Positions 790 through 7,500 of a stretch of DNA of 64,000 nucleotides are shown piece by piece; within the stretch, counting starts at the first letter, position 1; every line of letters starts with the position of its first letter. A program made the translations under genes and the position numbers. The notes under the pieces were generated by a model that ran no database searches, had not been told where the DNA came from, and saw only the letters and a list, made by a program, of their open reading frames with translations. Source of the DNA: Nitrospira sp. (GTDB taxonomy: Bacteria; Nitrospirota; Nitrospiria; Nitrospirales; Nitrospiraceae); NCBI GenBank assembly GCA_029194535.1, contig JARFXR010000001.1:372001-436000 (forward strand), in the 5' to 3' direction.

Positions 790-2079
790 CTACAGCCAGT
801 TCACCCGTTCGGCGGGTCTGACATAGATCGGCTCTTCGACCTGAATGCGCGCCACTTCCTTGCCCGACTTGTTGAAGCCCAGCACGGTATCGTTGTACAT
901 CTCGAACCGCTTGCCGTGAATCTGGGTCTCAAACACCTTCGGGCCCGGAATGACGTCATACCGGAAGACGATCTGCTGGCTGGCTCTCCAGAGCTGGAGG
1001 ACCGCCAACAACTCCCGGCTCGGCACCAGATACTTCTCAATGGCATTGTCCACGCCCGGGCCGAACATCTGCCGGGCATAGCCCCGCGGGCTGTGCCGCG
1101 GCGGAATGTAGTAGCCATTGGGCTCCGTGCCCCACTGCGGATACAAGGGCAGCGCCACCTGCTCCACCCGAATGGTGTAGTACAGGGGGTGCCACCGATC
1201 CTCCGCCCACAGGCCGTCCTCGCCGATGCGCACCAGGCTCTGCATGCGGATCTTCCCCACGCAGGCCGCCATACAGCGCGTTTCCATCGGCTCGCCGCCC
1301 GTCAGCGGGTCCTTCCCCTCGATCCGGGGATAGCACGCAATGCACTTCTCCGACACCCGGGTCGTCCCCCGGTACATCGGCTTCTTGAACGGACACTGCT
1401 CCACGCACTTCTTGTACCCCCGGCACCGGTTCTGGTCGATCAACACGATGCCGTCCTCCGGCCGCTTATAGATCGCCTTGCGCGGGCAGGCGGCCAAACA
1501 GCCGGGGTAGGTGCAGTGATTGCAAATCCGCTGCAGGTAGAAGAAGAACGTCTCGTGCTCCGGCAGCGAACTGCCGGACAGCCGCCACGGCTCATCGCGC
1601 GAGAACCCCGACCGATCAATGCCCTCCACCAACGAGCGCATCGAGGTCGCCGTGTCCTCGTAGATGTTCACGAAGCGCCATTCCTGGTCCGTCGGAATGT
1701 ACCCAATCGCCGCCTGGCCCACCTTGGCCCCCGCGTCAAAAATGGTCATCCCTTCGAACACCCCGTAGGGCGCATGGTGCTTGCGGCCCACCCGCACGTT
1801 CCACACCTGCCCCCCCGGGTTCACTTGCTCGATCAACTGCGTGATCTTCACGTCGTAGAACTGCGGATACCCCCCGTACGGCTTGGTCTCCACGTTGTTC
1901 CACCACATGTATTCCTGGCCCTTCGAAAACAGCCAGGTCGACTTGTCCGCCATCGAACACGTCTGACACGCCAAACACCGGTTGATATTGAACACAAAGG
2001 CAAACTGCCACTTCGGATGCCGCTCCTCATACGGATACAGCATCTTCCGTCCCAGTTGCCAGTTATAGACTTCTGGCAT
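790..2079 (-). CDS. nxrB: Nitrite oxidoreductase beta subunit, NxrB
   Basis: Iron-sulfur electron-transfer subunit of nitrite oxidoreductase, 429 residues, passing electrons from the NxrA molybdenum site towards the membrane partner and cytochrome c. Cys groups fit four clusters of the NarH/DMSO-reductase II type: C35/C38/C41, C186/C189/C194/C198, C219/C225/C229, C246/C249 and C269/C273. It has no signal peptide; in the Nitrospira enzyme the protein is thought to be exported by piggy-back on NxrA through Tat. The ATG has an AGGAGG-type site (2086-2093). It lies 83 bp downstream of nxrA in the same transcript. The sequence closely matches the Nitrospira form, a standard marker gene for the genus. 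Confidence 0.97.
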   Translation of the reverse strand: MPEVYNWQLGRKMLYPYEERHPKWQFAFVFNINRCLACQTCSMADKSTWLFSKGQEYMWWNNVETKPYGGYPQFYDVKITQLIEQVNPGGQVWNVRVGRKHHAPYGVFEGMTIFDAGAKVGQAAIGYIPTDQEWRFVNIYEDTATSMRSLVEGIDRSGFSRDEPWRLSGSSLPEHETFFFYLQRICNHCTYPGCLAACPRKAIYKRPEDGIVLIDQNRCRGYKKCVEQCPFKKPMYRGTTRVSEKCIACYPRIEGKDPLTGGEPMETRCMAACVGKIRMQSLVRIGEDGLWAEDRWHPLYYTIRVEQVALPLYPQWGTEPNGYYIPPRHSPRGYARQMFGPGVDNAIEKYLVPSRELLAVLQLWRASQQIVFRYDVIPGPKVFETQIHGKRFEMYNDTVLGFNKSGKEVARIQVEEPIYVRPAERVNWL

Positions 2080-2162: not shown

Positions 2163-5100
2163 TTACACCTTGATCTTGATGTGCTCACCTTTGAGCCACT
2201 TGATCATGAACTCGTTCTCCTGTCCCGGGGTGAAGCCGGTGCGAACCGGTTCCCACGGGCCCCGCGCGCCGATGCCGCCGTCTTCCGCCTTGGTGATGCG
2301 GATCAGACATTCCTTCGGCGTCGTATTGACCGCGTGGTGGTCGATCGCATAGCCCCACTTGAACTTCCAGGCAATCGCATGTTTGCCCGGGAGGGAGTCG
2401 GTCTGGTGCATCGGCATCAGCCACGACCGGGTAAAGGACTGTTGGGCCCCATACCGGAAGTTGGACTGATAGCCGGTGTCCACCGCGATGGCCCGACCGT
2501 CCGGCCGAGTCTCGTGGCCCTTCACCGACTTCGCCGTCGACACGTACGGGGCGTGCTTCGCCATCGTCACGTGGTACGGATAGGCCGGGTTGTACTTCGC
2601 CCGGATCATCAAGCGCGCGACCTTGTAGAACGGATCCGAGGGTTTCCAGCCGCGATAGGGCCGGTCCACCGGGTTGCCGTCCACATAGACGTAGTCGCCG
2701 TCGTTGATGCCGCGGTCTTTGGCCGCCTGCGGGTTGATGTGCAACTGGTGCTCGCCGACGCCCGGCGTCCGCTTGTCCATGCGGTACGGATCGCCGAAAT
2801 TCGACTCGTAAATCTGCACCCAGTCGTTCACCGACCACTGGCTGTGCACCCGGTGCCGGGTCTTCGGGGTCACGCAGTAGAACTGGTAGCCCTTCTCCCA
2901 CAACGGGTTGGCATGCCGCTTGATTTCCGACCAGGGCAGCTTGATGTTGCGCACATGCTTGTCGTCATGGTGCTGCGCCGTGATCGGAATGCCGTAGTCG
3001 TCCGGTCGGACGTACGGGTTGGTCGTGAAGATGGCGTTCGGCAGATACGGGGTCGCCTCCGGGCCTTCCCGGTGCACGATGAAGTTTTCCCCGTACTCGA
3101 TCGCCTCCGGCTCGATGCGATACGTTTCAATACGACCGCATCGCGTCCACTGCGGCTTGCTCTCGTTCGTTTCTTCCCAGAGCGGATGGCGGGGATAGGT
3201 GCGTCCCATGACCATCCAGCCCTTCTCCGACTTCAGCATCACGTCAGCGTTGTACCCGTAACAGGTCGCGCTGGCGTCGAGCGCGCGCTGGACGTACACG
3301 TCCACGCGGTTCTGATACACGAAGTGGAACACCTGACGGATCCTGACATCGCCCGTCATTTCCGTCAGTCTTGCCGCCACGGCCGCGAAAGTATCGGCGT
3401 CGTTGCGGGTGTCGTACAGCGGCCGGATGCCGCCTTTCCAGATCTGCACCCACGGATTCGACACCGTCGCCGTCATTTCCGGATAGGTGAATTCCATCCA
3501 GGAGTTGCAGGCAAAGGCGATGTCGGCGTGGTTGACGTCCGAGGTCATCTCGATGTCCTGGGTCACGATCATCTCGATGTTCGGATCCACGTTGCGCACC
3601 ATGTCATAGTGGTGCTTGGCGTTGTTCAGAATGTTCACGTTGGTCACCCACCGGACCTTGCTCGGGCTCGGCATGTGGGTCTTGCCCGTGAACACCTTGC
3701 GTCCGTACTTCGGCGTGTTGACGATCAGGGCGGTGTCCCCGTGGTTCCAATACCCGACCTCTTCGCCGTAGTAGTAGGACTTCGTCTTGATTTCCTTGCC
3801 GTGCGCATTCGGATCGAGGGTCTGGTTGAACGGATCCTCACCCGTATGCACCGCCAAGCCGGCGCCCGACCAGGGAGTGGCGTTCCAGATACCGGCCTTG
3901 TAGTTGCCGGACCAGGTATGACATCCCGTGCCGAACTTCCCCATATTGCCGGTCAAGGTCAGGACGAACGCCGCCGCCCGTCCCATTTCCGTCATATGGA
4001 AGTAGTGACAGACGCCTTCGCCGTTGTGCATCGCCGCCGGTTTCACGGTGCCTGAATCCCGACCCCAGCGGACGATCAAGTCCTTGGGCGACCGGGTAAT
4101 CTGATTGACCGTGTCCAGATCGTAGTCCTGGAGATGGACCAGGTACATCTGGTAGATCGGCGATACGTCCACTTCGCGGCCGTTCAATAGCTTGACGCGG
4201 AAAGTGCCGGTCAATGCCGGATCGATTCCGGTCTGCACGAAATGGAAACCAACCTGCTCACGATTGACATACACAGGCTGTTTCTTCGCCAGATCATACA
4301 TCATGAATCCGCCCAACCGCTCGATCTGCTCCGGCTTCAACGCCTGAATCCGGCCCGAATAACTCTTGGAGTGATCCGGGAACTTGAAATCCGCGACGAC
4401 GTCACGCGGATCCAGATACTGGAGCGTGTCCGTCCGAACCAGGATGGGAAGGTCGGTAAACTGCTTGATATAGTCGATGTCCTGCAGATTCTCGTCGAGG
4501 ATGATTTTGCAACCACCCAAGAACAGCGCCGAGTCCGTCTCCGGACGAACCGGAATCCAGTAGTCGGCCCGATAGGCCGTCGGATTGTACTCGGGCGTGA
4601 TCACCACGATGCGGCCGCCTCGCTCGATGGACTCGAGCTTCCAGTGGGCTTCCGGCATCTTGTTTTCGACGAAGTTCTTACCCCAGCTGGTATTCAGCTT
4701 GCTGAACCGCATATCGCTGAGATCGATATCGCAGTTCTGCGTGCCGTTCCACCATGGGTGCGAGGGATCCTGGTCGCCGTGCCAGGTATAGTTTGAATAA
4801 TACTTTCCACCTTGGGCCCTGTCCGCGTCCACTTTGCGGATCCAGGAATCCAGCAGCGGCAACACGCCGCCGTTGAAGCGGGTGTTCATCATCTTGCCGA
4901 TGATGCCGAGCACAGGCATGCCGGCCCGATGCTTGAAGCACCGAACTCCGGCGCCCTTCATCATCTCGATCATTTCCGGCGCGTACCCCTGCTCGCGCAG
5001 GCGTCGCGCTCCGGCTTCGCCGCTGTACCGGGTCGCGATGACGATGCAGCCTTTGGCCGCATAGGTCGCCGCCGTATCCCAGGAGACGCGCATCATGTCG

Positions 5101-5609
5101 TCGAGGAAGCGCGCGTCGAATTTATATTTCCGCTTCACATCCGGAGTGAGCTCCGGAGAACCGGCATCCATCCATTCCTTCCAGCCCTTCCGCATCAACG
5201 GTCCCTTCAAGCGATAGGGGCCGTACACGCGGCGATGAAAGGTGAATCCTTTCAGGCACATCCGGGGATTATGCGCGAAGGTCCCGCGGTTGCCGTAGAG
5301 ATCTTCGTAGGTCTGATGGTCATAGTTCTGTTCGACCCGCATCACCACGCCGTTGCGAACAAAGGCGCGAACGCGGCATCCGTGAGTGTCGTTCGGAGAA
5401 CAACACCACGTGAAAGACGAATCGTATCGATACTGGTCGTGATAGACCCGCTCCCAGGATCGATCGGGATAGTCACCCAGTGGGTTACCCACTTCGATGA
5501 CTGGCTGCAGCGCCGTCAAGGCCAGAACCTTGTCCGCTACTGCCACAGCCGCGACCGTTCCAGCTGTAATTTTGAGGAACTGCCGACGTGAGACAAGTGA
5601 TTGCTGCAT
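2163..5609 (-). CDS. nxrA: Nitrite oxidoreductase alpha subunit, NxrA (Mo-bisMGD)
   Basis: Catalytic subunit that oxidises nitrite to nitrate, 1148 residues, of the type II DMSO reductase family. The N-terminus carries a twin-arginine signal (SRRQFLK, residues 7-13) followed by a hydrophobic stretch, so the enzyme faces the periplasm as in Nitrospira. Cys69/70, Cys78 and Cys118 with the segment NDTHGC mark the N-terminal [4Fe-4S] site; the rest is the molybdopterin domain. I chose the ATG at 5609 rather than the in-frame GTG at 5618 because AGGAGG (5618-5623) sits 8 nt before the ATG. It heads an nxrA-nxrB unit. No nxrC-like gene is in the window. The upstream 470 bp carries a dense set of regulatory motifs. 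Confidence 0.97.
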   Translation of the reverse strand: MQQSLVSRRQFLKITAGTVAAVAVADKVLALTALQPVIEVGNPLGDYPDRSWERVYHDQYRYDSSFTWCCSPNDTHGCRVRAFVRNGVVMRVEQNYDHQTYEDLYGNRGTFAHNPRMCLKGFTFHRRVYGPYRLKGPLMRKGWKEWMDAGSPELTPDVKRKYKFDARFLDDMMRVSWDTAATYAAKGCIVIATRYSGEAGARRLREQGYAPEMIEMMKGAGVRCFKHRAGMPVLGIIGKMMNTRFNGGVLPLLDSWIRKVDADRAQGGKYYSNYTWHGDQDPSHPWWNGTQNCDIDLSDMRFSKLNTSWGKNFVENKMPEAHWKLESIERGGRIVVITPEYNPTAYRADYWIPVRPETDSALFLGGCKIILDENLQDIDYIKQFTDLPILVRTDTLQYLDPRDVVADFKFPDHSKSYSGRIQALKPEQIERLGGFMMYDLAKKQPVYVNREQVGFHFVQTGIDPALTGTFRVKLLNGREVDVSPIYQMYLVHLQDYDLDTVNQITRSPKDLIVRWGRDSGTVKPAAMHNGEGVCHYFHMTEMGRAAAFVLTLTGNMGKFGTGCHTWSGNYKAGIWNATPWSGAGLAVHTGEDPFNQTLDPNAHGKEIKTKSYYYGEEVGYWNHGDTALIVNTPKYGRKVFTGKTHMPSPSKVRWVTNVNILNNAKHHYDMVRNVDPNIEMIVTQDIEMTSDVNHADIAFACNSWMEFTYPEMTATVSNPWVQIWKGGIRPLYDTRNDADTFAAVAARLTEMTGDVRIRQVFHFVYQNRVDVYVQRALDASATCYGYNADVMLKSEKGWMVMGRTYPRHPLWEETNESKPQWTRCGRIETYRIEPEAIEYGENFIVHREGPEATPYLPNAIFTTNPYVRPDDYGIPITAQHHDDKHVRNIKLPWSEIKRHANPLWEKGYQFYCVTPKTRHRVHSQWSVNDWVQIYESNFGDPYRMDKRTPGVGEHQLHINPQAAKDRGINDGDYVYVDGNPVDRPYRGWKPSDPFYKVARLMIRAKYNPAYPYHVTMAKHAPYVSTAKSVKGHETRPDGRAIAVDTGYQSNFRYGAQQSFTRSWLMPMHQTDSLPGKHAIAWKFKWGYAIDHHAVNTTPKECLIRITKAEDGGIGARGPWEPVRTGFTPGQENEFMIKWLKGEHIKIKV

Positions 5610-5642
5610 CGCGAACACCTCCTACTTCAAAGACAATCTTAC

Positions 5643-5763: not shown

Positions 5764-5779
5764 TACAAGCCTTGTGCCT
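5764..5779 (-). promoter_or_regulatory. Possible sigma-54 promoter for nxrAB
   Basis: The minus strand reads AGGCAC-N5-TTGTA, against the sigma-54 consensus TGGCAC-N5-TTGCA. GG of the -24 element and the 10-nt spacing are kept, but the -12 GC is GT. Transcription would start near 5752, leaving a leader of about 140 nt. It is supported by the sigma-54 activator gene immediately upstream and by the repeated sites at 5906-6071. Hand-scanning this region found no exact GG-N10-GC match. Confidence 0.35.
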
Positions 5780-5905
5780 GCTCGCTCGCATCAATACGAA
5801 GGCGCCTGTTACAAACAGGAGAGATGTTCGCACTGTAAAATCAATAACTTATTGCCGTGACGTGGGAGTCGGACTGATGGGAAAAATCCAGCGAGAGAGA
5901 AGTCT

Positions 5906-5923
5906 TGTCAGTAGAGCCTGACG
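5906..5923. promoter_or_regulatory. Activator-type inverted repeat, site 1 (TGTCAG-N6-CTGACG)
   Basis: One mismatch to the consensus TGTCAG-N6-CTGACA shared by four sites upstream of nxrA. The centre is about 160 bp upstream of the predicted sigma-54 start, a usual distance for an enhancer bound by an NtrC-type activator. Confidence 0.55.
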
Positions 5924-5938
5924 ATGAGAAGCGGAGAA

Positions 5939-5956
5939 TGTCATAAGTAACTGATT
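5939..5956. promoter_or_regulatory. Activator-type inverted repeat, site 2 (degenerate)
   Basis: TGTCAT-N6-CTGATT, 9 of 12 positions as in the consensus. Its centre is 33 bp from site 1 and 34 bp from site 3, close to three helical turns, so the three sites would lie on roughly the same DNA face. Confidence 0.4.
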
Positions 5957-5972
5957 TATTTAAGTATTTATG

Positions 5973-5990
5973 TGTCAGCGAAGACTGACA
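5973..5990. promoter_or_regulatory. Activator-type inverted repeat, site 3 (perfect TGTCAG-N6-CTGACA)
   Basis: A perfect 6-6-6 palindrome that defines the consensus for this group. It lies between the sigma-54 activator gene and nxrA. Confidence 0.6.
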
Positions 5991-6053
5991 GCATAGCAAT
6001 ATGAGCAGAAATGCTTGAAAAATGCTGAAGATAGAAGGAAAGGTGCTGCTGAG

Positions 6054-6071
6054 TGTCAGGAAACAGTGACA
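6054..6071. promoter_or_regulatory. Activator-type inverted repeat, site 4 (TGTCAG-N6-GTGACA)
   Basis: One mismatch to the consensus. It lies 7 bp beyond the stop codon of the activator gene, so the array fills the intergenic region. The centre is 81 bp from site 3. Confidence 0.5.
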
Positions 6072-6078
6072 GCTGAAA

Positions 6079-7500
6079 TTACTTATCGTCTCGAAAGTAC
6101 CGCCGCATGATTTCGTGGAAATAGGGGCGGGGGAGTCCTGCCTCTTGAGCCGCATGTGTGACATTGCCCTGGTGGTGGTCCAGCTTGGACTTGATGTAGC
6201 GGCGGCTGAAGTCCTCCAGTAACTTCTCTTTCGCTTTCGCGTAGGGAAGAGACAGGTAGTCGTCCCCTTGGCCTCTTCTCGCTTGATCGGTGAACTGCAG
6301 CAGGCCGATGACATCGTCCTGGCTGATACGATCCCCTTTGGCCAACATCACCGCTCTCTCCATGACATTGCGGAGTTCCCGTACGTTTCCGGGCCAAGGA
6401 TAGGCCACGAGTTCCGTGACGGCGGAAGGATGCAATTCATTCACATACTTGTCGAATTCCTTCGCATATCGGGCGATAAAATGCCGGGCAAGGAGCGGAA
6501 TATCCTGCGTGCGGTCGCGCAGGGGCGGCACTCTGATGGCCATGACATTGAGCCGGAAGAAGAGATCCTTGCGGAATTCATTCCGTTTTACCTTCTCGGT
6601 GAGTTCTTGGTTCGTCGCCGCAATGAAGCGTGCGCTGACTTTTTTCATCTGCACGCTCCCCACGGCCCGCATTTCTCCTTCCTCAAGGACCCGGAGCAAC
6701 TTCGCCTGTAACGGAAGCGGCAGGTCGCCGATTTCGTCGAGGAACAGCGTGCCCCCAATGCCTCGTTCGATCAACCCGAGTTTGTCTCCCACGGCGCCCG
6801 TAAAGGCGCCGCGCACGTGGCCGAAGAGTTCGCTTTCGACCGTTCCTTCCGAGAAGGTCGTGCAGTCGACGACCTGAAATGGACCGTCACGCTCGGCACT
6901 CCGTTCGTGGATGGCTCTGGCGATCAACTCCTTCCCCGTGCCTGTTTCTCCGATGATCAACGTGGTGGACTGTACGCGCGCTGCGGCTTCGATCATGGCC
7001 GTCACGTTGCGGATGGCGGGGCTCACGCCGATCAATTCTTTGAACGTCTGATGCTCTCCCTTTTGGGGCGGCTCGTAGCGGAATAAGATCTCCGAAATTC
7101 GCATCGCTCGATGAATCCTGGCCGCCAGGTCGAGCTTTTCGAACGGTTTCGTGACATAGTCGAATGCTCCGCACCGCATCGCTTCGACGGCGGTGTCCAC
7201 TGCGGCCACCCGACTGATCACGATGACCGGAATCCTGCGGTCTCTTGCCTGGATTCGCTGCAACAGCTCGATGCCGCTCATTCCCGGCAACCGGACTTCC
7301 GTGATCACCAGGTCAACCCGCCTATCTTCGAGGATCTTCATCGCACCCTCTGCGCGTGCGGCAATCACCAAGTCGACCTGCTCATCTTGCTCGCGGGGAA
7401 GTTCCGCCTCGACGGTACGCAGGAATACTTCCACGTCCCCGCCATTGTCCTCCACCAGCAGGATGGTGAAAACCTTGTCGGTCGCCGGCTTGATGCTCAT
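6079..7500 (-). CDS. Sigma-54-dependent response regulator, NtrC type, with Asp-to-Glu receiver
   Basis: 473 residues: receiver domain (about 10-130), AAA+ sigma-54 activation domain, and a FIS-type helix-turn-helix at about 440-466. The AAA+ domain is complete: Walker A GETGTGKE (184-191), GAFTGA loop (231-236), Walker B TLFLDE (251-256). In the receiver the acidic pair E17/D18 and K118 are kept, but the phospho-acceptor position in DLVITEVRLPGM is Glu68 instead of Asp, which often mimics the phosphorylated state. It lies directly upstream of nxrAB in the same direction, separated by a region full of inverted repeats, so it is the likely nxr activator (inference). The ATG has GAGGAG close by; the spacing is short. 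Confidence 0.93.
   Translation of the reverse strand: MSIKPATDKVFTILLVEDNGGDVEVFLRTVEAELPREQDEQVDLVIAARAEGAMKILEDRRVDLVITEVRLPGMSGIELLQRIQARDRRIPVIVISRVAAVDTAVEAMRCGAFDYVTKPFEKLDLAARIHRAMRISEILFRYEPPQKGEHQTFKELIGVSPAIRNVTAMIEAAARVQSTTLIIGETGTGKELIARAIHERSAERDGPFQVVDCTTFSEGTVESELFGHVRGAFTGAVGDKLGLIERGIGGTLFLDEIGDLPLPLQAKLLRVLEEGEMRAVGSVQMKKVSARFIAATNQELTEKVKRNEFRKDLFFRLNVMAIRVPPLRDRTQDIPLLARHFIARYAKEFDKYVNELHPSAVTELVAYPWPGNVRELRNVMERAVMLAKGDRISQDDVIGLLQFTDQARRGQGDDYLSLPYAKAKEKLLEDFSRRYIKSKLDHHQGNVTHAAQEAGLPRPYFHEIMRRYFRDDK

Follow-up and report, generated by a model that had tools for sequence, protein, structure and literature searches.

A probable three-site sigma-54 enhancer upstream of the nitrite oxidoreductase genes nxrAB in Nitrospira and its coupling to an adjacent activator

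Introduction

The closest described counterpart of the locus considered here is the IHF-looped sigma-54 enhancer, in whose general scheme (PMC7057263) an activator composed of receiver, AAA+ and Fis-type domains and carrying a GAFTGA motif is combined with multiple dyads ahead of the promoter, intervening IHF sites, a -24 GG at the correct spacing and an rpoN gene. The -12 element in this scheme is TTGC (GG-N10-GC), and the -12 GC of sigma-54 promoters has been described as conserved (PMC3844500). In Nitrospira, sigma-54-dependent regulators encoded beside nxrAB have been published on the basis of gene neighbourhood and expression (PMC6606698 and PMC7522533, citing Lucker 2010 and Koch 2015), and the idea that the nxr paralogues are controlled differently has also been put forward already. 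RNA-seq of N. moscoviensis gave 13,027 RPKM for nxrA_5 (NITMOv2_4538) versus 19-486 in the other measured copies, with a low transcript level of the activator and high expression of a nearby NifA-like regulator gene (PMC6606698). No published operator, IHF sites or promoter were found in the open literature, in a search without Lucker 2010 and Koch 2015; an earlier mention is possible.

In this study, we analyse a stretch of 64,000 nucleotides from Nitrospira sp. (the window; contig JARFXR010000001.1, positions 372,001 to 436,000), in which a gene for an NtrC-type activator is followed by an array of inverted repeats and by nxrAB. All elements of the scheme outlined above have a counterpart at this locus, which differs from it in a TTGTA element (GG-N10-GT) instead of TTGC, in three dyads at the fixed spacings 81/67, and in IHF-like sites that are also located between the dyads. 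The array is very probably a three-site upstream sigma-54 enhancer of the nxrAB promoter, served by the adjacent activator.

Organization of the locus and rarity of the dyads

The features of the locus are listed in Table 1. Both the activator gene and nxrA are located on the minus strand, so that the order of transcription is activator, array, nxrA. The intergenic region of about 466 bp has a G+C content of 46%, compared with 61% for the window.

Table 1 Features of the activator-nxrAB locus (window coordinates; offsets are counted from the activator stop codon)
Feature	Position	Strand	Offset (bp)	Remarks
Activator gene	6079..7500	-		NtrC-type, 473 aa; Pfam PF00072, PF00158, PF25601, PF02954
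Dyad site A	6054..6071		+8	1 mismatch; conserved across clade A
Dyad site B	5973..5990		+89	Perfect; 81 bp from A
Dyad copy with 3 mismatches	5939..5956		+123	
IHF-like site AATCAG-N4-TTA	5944..5956	-		Between B and C; 1 mismatch to WATCAA-N4-TTR
Dyad site C	5906..5923		+156	1 mismatch; 67 bp from B, 148 bp from A
IHF-like site TAAGTTATTGATT	5839..5851	-	+228	Between site C and promoter; exact YAA-N4-TTGATW match
Sigma-54-like promoter AGGCACAAGGCTTGTA	5764..5779	-	+300	-24 GG; -12 GT replacing GC
Shine-Dalgarno sequence AGGAGGTG	5616..5623	-		nxrA start ATG at 5609
nxrA	2163..5609	-	~+470	Nitrite oxidoreductase catalytic subunit; 92% identity to N. defluvii nxrA
nxrB	790..2079	-		Iron-sulfur subunit; next in operon after nxrA

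The first-pass annotation of this DNA had described a four-copy array of TGTCAG-N6-CTGACA downstream of an NtrC-type activator gene and upstream of nxrA, and both this position and the four matches, which have 1, 3, 0 and 1 mismatches in ascending order of their coordinates, were recovered. Only three of them (5906, 5973 and 6054) are conserved dyads, whereas the copy at 5939 lacks dyad conservation, and the proposed spacing of 33-34 bp, or three helical turns, is no conserved feature because it hinges on that copy. Sites A and C are separated by about 14 helical turns, with site B off phase. When up to three mismatches are allowed, the entire window contains 19 matches versus 21 in shuffled sequences, so that single weak matches mean nothing and the signal resides in the cluster of strong ones. 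The complete genome (3,979,322 bases) contains one perfect site and four sites with one mismatch. Of these five, three are located within 166 bp at this locus; the remaining two (L004, L005) are isolated and lie within or overlap coding sequence. Given this background of 2 sites in 3.98 Mb, one would expect about 0.0002 sites in the 466 bp between the two genes. It had been recognised from the start that the motif might be equally frequent elsewhere; in seven closed genomes encoding an activator of the same clade (clade A, see below), the counts of sites with at most one mismatch are mostly close to those of a reversed-pattern control, and any clustering occurs at the nxrA array and not away from it. 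A wider regulon was considered and rejected on the grounds of these near-control counts.

Coupling of dyad type and activator clade

Related organisms were compared by means of 79 nxrA loci, all from named genomes, and of 74 activator relatives, which came from 175 genomes belonging to the family. In the activator tree, one fully supported branch separates two clades: clade A consists of 40 proteins including that of the window, which are 65-100% identical, and clade B is 49-57% identical. The motif search upstream of other nxrA copies that had been suggested for this array revealed that the dyad follows the activator clade: it is present with at most two mismatches in 39 of the 39 clade A loci with enough sequence, compared with two of 33 clade B loci and 1.5% of shuffled regions, and it is essentially absent without an adjacent activator, the clade A matrix giving a single weak hit among the nxrA loci that lack both activators. 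The spacing 81/67 recurs exactly at 25 loci, and in an alignment-free analysis of the 22 of these that are less than 85% identical, the dyad arms reach 1.77 bits per column versus 0.62 for the background. The arrays do vary: site B is degenerate in the N. defluvii group (CGTCCG-N6-CAGACA), and two long-branch cassettes of N. moscoviensis carry weaker arrays.

Cassettes of clade B contain a different dyad of the TGTTTC/TGTTAC type with spacings of 62-66, 73-75 or 83-84 bp, which correspond to helical steps; the nominal p value of about 1e-9 for these spacings overstates the case, as the loci are related, and the position matrix of this dyad is loose and also matches many nxrA loci that have no activator gene beside them. 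The dyads of the two clades have the outer TGT...ACA in common and differ in the inner bases, and the recognition helices of the activators read RSYFHEIMRR in clade A and RQHFSLLMKR in clade B; the difference in the helices probably corresponds to that in the inner bases. Several genomes harbour both clades. In three of them, N. moscoviensis (G054), G014 and G131, nxrA genes from A and B cassettes share up to 90-96% identity and resemble each other more closely than those of the corresponding cassette type from other species. This pattern points to gene conversion, and each cassette nevertheless retains the dyad and the promoter of its own activator type. The fact that the dyad type follows the activator despite homogenised nxrA genes argues that it is the adjacent activator to which the dyads respond. 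The coupling is derived mainly from one deep split, that between A and B, but with nxrA genes converted between cassettes, simple linkage becomes a less likely cause.

These data also bear on the question whether the dyads are bound by a factor encoded elsewhere, such as a CRP/FNR-type NnrR or another two-component regulator, with the neighbouring activator working in some other way. Nitrospira does possess CRP/FNR homologues including NnrR (PMC8510549), and binding of the neighbouring activator is deduced from sequence. We nevertheless regard such a factor as improbable, since the dyad sequence changes with the activator clade next to it, even within genomes with homogenised nxrA, and since nxrA loci without a clade A activator essentially lack the clade A dyad. 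Furthermore, the sites of CRP and FNR are 16 and 14 bp long, respectively, and the 18-bp TGT-N12-ACA layout is unlike the spacing of either.

The activator protein

The putative enhancer-binding protein encoded next to the array is composed of a receiver domain, a sigma-54 AAA+ domain with the Walker A motif GETGTGKE and a GAFTGA loop, and a Fis-type helix-turn-helix domain. The AAA+ domain is recognised by PF00158 with an E value of 3.8e-61, and the GAFTGA motif occurs in 74 of the 74 relatives. The match of the helix-turn-helix to PF02954 (E 0.0004, 20.5 bits) is just under the cut-off of 22, but its assignment to the Fis type is backed by a conserved C-terminal alignment. With NtrC, AtoC and NtrX the protein shares the domain order and the overall similarity (best NCBIfam scores), but it is set apart from them by scores far under the equivalog cut-offs, including that for NtrC (369.3 bits versus 558.6), and by the replacement of the receiver aspartate in this species; it also falls below the cut-off for NifA. 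To our knowledge, TGTCAG-N6-CTGACA is not the NtrC site.

The phosphosite aspartate of the receiver domain is retained in 34 of the 40 clade A proteins and in all 34 clade B proteins. In the window activator (motif TEVRLPG) and four clade A relatives it is replaced by glutamate, so that the window protein does not qualify as a phosphorylation-controlled response regulator, and further key receiver residues are altered in several clade A proteins. These substitutions suggest that control by phosphorylation may have been lost in places. No histidine kinase gene was noticed beside the activator gene, and together with the glutamate at the phosphosite this indicates that the activator may act without phosphorylation in this species, being permanently primed or controlled otherwise.

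IHF-like sites and the sigma-54-like promoter

The dyad copy with three mismatches overlaps an IHF-like site, and in a set of 22 non-redundant loci the other genomes keep the columns resembling WATCAA-N4-TTR and lose the second arm of the dyad. IHF sites with one mismatch of such a kind have been reported elsewhere (PMC5963220). In the clade A regions, 106 IHF-type matches were found versus 15 expected, a seven-fold excess concentrated at three fixed places, and the clade B regions show a five-fold excess at two places. In 34 of 37 loci, 69-72 bp separate the promoter-proximal IHF-like site from dyad C, and the distance of this site to the promoter is mostly 59-61 or 70-72 bp, with 51 bp at one locus, i.e. 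it changes in steps of about one helical turn. IHF alpha is encoded in the genome with a score above the cut-off and IHF beta with a near-cutoff score (111.5 versus 115); the locus thus combines a predicted IHF site between enhancer and promoter with the IHF genes, as an IHF-assisted enhancer would.

Between the array and nxrA, the sequence NGGCA-N6-TTGT is present in 39 of the 40 clade A loci and is always followed by A. Among these 39 promoters GGCA-N6-TTGTA is invariant, although the set was chosen by that very pattern, and the element of the clade A region can be written as NGGCAY-N5-TTGTA. The -24 GG has the correct spacing to the -12 element, whereas the -12 GC (TTGCW) is replaced by GT in clade A, for which reason we designate the element a sigma-54-like variant and not a canonical member; the clade B promoters (TGGCA-N6-TTGCT/A) contain the -12 GC. 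Genome-wide, the TTGTA promoter pattern has six matches, about the same number as the control, so that the element alone is not diagnostic. No sigma-70 promoter was found in the intergenic region. The gene rpoN is represented by one PF04552 copy in each of eight genomes checked, including that of the window, and on account of this single copy it was rejected that the TTGTA variant is due to the existence of several sigma-54 factors.

The location of the promoter is relevant for two further readings of the repeats. That the sites chiefly autoregulate the activator gene or block its read-through, and do not drive nxrA, might be supposed from their position directly after the activator stop codon, but this is very unlikely, because the sigma-54-like promoter lies toward nxrA at approximately the usual distance of 100-150 bp and neither a dyad nor a convincing sigma-54 element is present near the activator start. 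A function as RNA, with hairpins (terminator, attenuator or riboswitch) in the leader of nxrA or at the 3' end of the activator mRNA, is likewise very unlikely. The minus strand does fold somewhat more stably than shuffled sequences (z -2.2), as any palindromes would. However, the region contains no terminator-like site and no credible Rfam match, changes in the arms are uncompensated (TGTCAG with ATGACA), all sites are upstream of the putative promoter and hence outside the nxrA mRNA, and the fixed spacings and helical steps suit DNA binding.

A model for the control of nxrAB

The interpretation of the array as an enhancer, already proposed in the first-pass annotation, appears to be right in substance, with three dyads instead of four. 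The sites, their conserved spacing, the clade coupling, the promoter-like element and the IHF-like sites are directly visible in the sequences compared; the protein-DNA contacts in the following model are predictions from them. The adjacent activator would bind the 18-bp dyads A, B and C as dimers and assemble there, and IHF would bind its sites and bend the DNA in the interval between B and C and in that between C and the promoter. Through this bending the AAA+ ring would reach the sigma-54 RNA polymerase, presumably held in the closed state at GGCAC-N5-TTGTA, and ATP hydrolysis would then open the promoter and lead to transcription of nxrAB.

The regulators concerned are those published for the Nitrospira nxrAB genes (PMC6606698, PMC7522533), the homologue NITMOv2_4539 belonging to clade A. 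According to the coordinates in N. moscoviensis, a clade A activator gene is located directly upstream of the highly expressed nxrA_5 on the same strand, and by gene order it probably is NITMOv2_4539. A cassette of the clade A type can hence be the main nxrA in use. The NifA-like gene, which was called 'upstream' (PMC6606698), lies downstream of the nxrAB cassettes according to the coordinates; its product could contribute to the expression of nxrA_5.

Other types of nxrA control

The view that the array constitutes a control system for nitrite oxidation probably holds for the nxrAB operon that it precedes, but does not hold for every nxrA, as the second copy of the organism lacks the array and other lineages carry other dyads. 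This second nxrA (L101, C1:485263-488691) is 89% identical to the window copy, and neither of the two dyad types and neither of the two promoter types was found upstream of it; its control differs from that of the window copy. Judged from the operator sequences, at least two types of predicted operator serve nxrA in the family.

Most of the nxrA loci without an adjacent activator (L021, L023-L026, L032-L083) have a TGYTAC-N6-GTAACR dyad, usually a single one, at about -260 to -550 upstream of nxrA, and several possess a TGGYCCGAATATTGCT-like element (GG-N10-GC) closer to the gene, which suggests that sigma-54 may control these loci through a regulator located outside them. One conserved sigma-54 response regulator, with the helix-turn-helix GNQTKAAERL-LQRTYLARLIKQQK, is encoded in genomes without clades A and B (L183, L185, L186, L194) and also in the genome of the window (L091, C1:1010310-1011638), and is a candidate for acting on the TGTTAC dyads. 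In a third arrangement, a gene for a NifA-like protein (GAF-AAA+-Fis) directly precedes nxrA (L014, L039, L040, L042, L045, L052, L087), and a TGGCAY-N6-GTGCA-like promoter element is located some 250 bp ahead of nxrA.

Significance for Nitrospira

A tentative idea, for which the chances are somewhat short of even, is that near-identical, gene-converted nxrA copies form insulated channels, in which dyad and -12 element have evolved together with the activator clade that they belong to and the copies are switched separately by one sigma-54. If this is true, the TTGTA promoters may be poorly used by other activators. By oxidising nitrite, Nitrospira carries out a main step in the global nitrogen cycle as well as in wastewater treatment. 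These bacteria are not readily manipulated, and a defined set of operator, activator and promoter makes the switching of nxr open to in vitro and reporter tests; in uncultured genomes, the sequence signature would tell which nxrA copy answers to which regulator.
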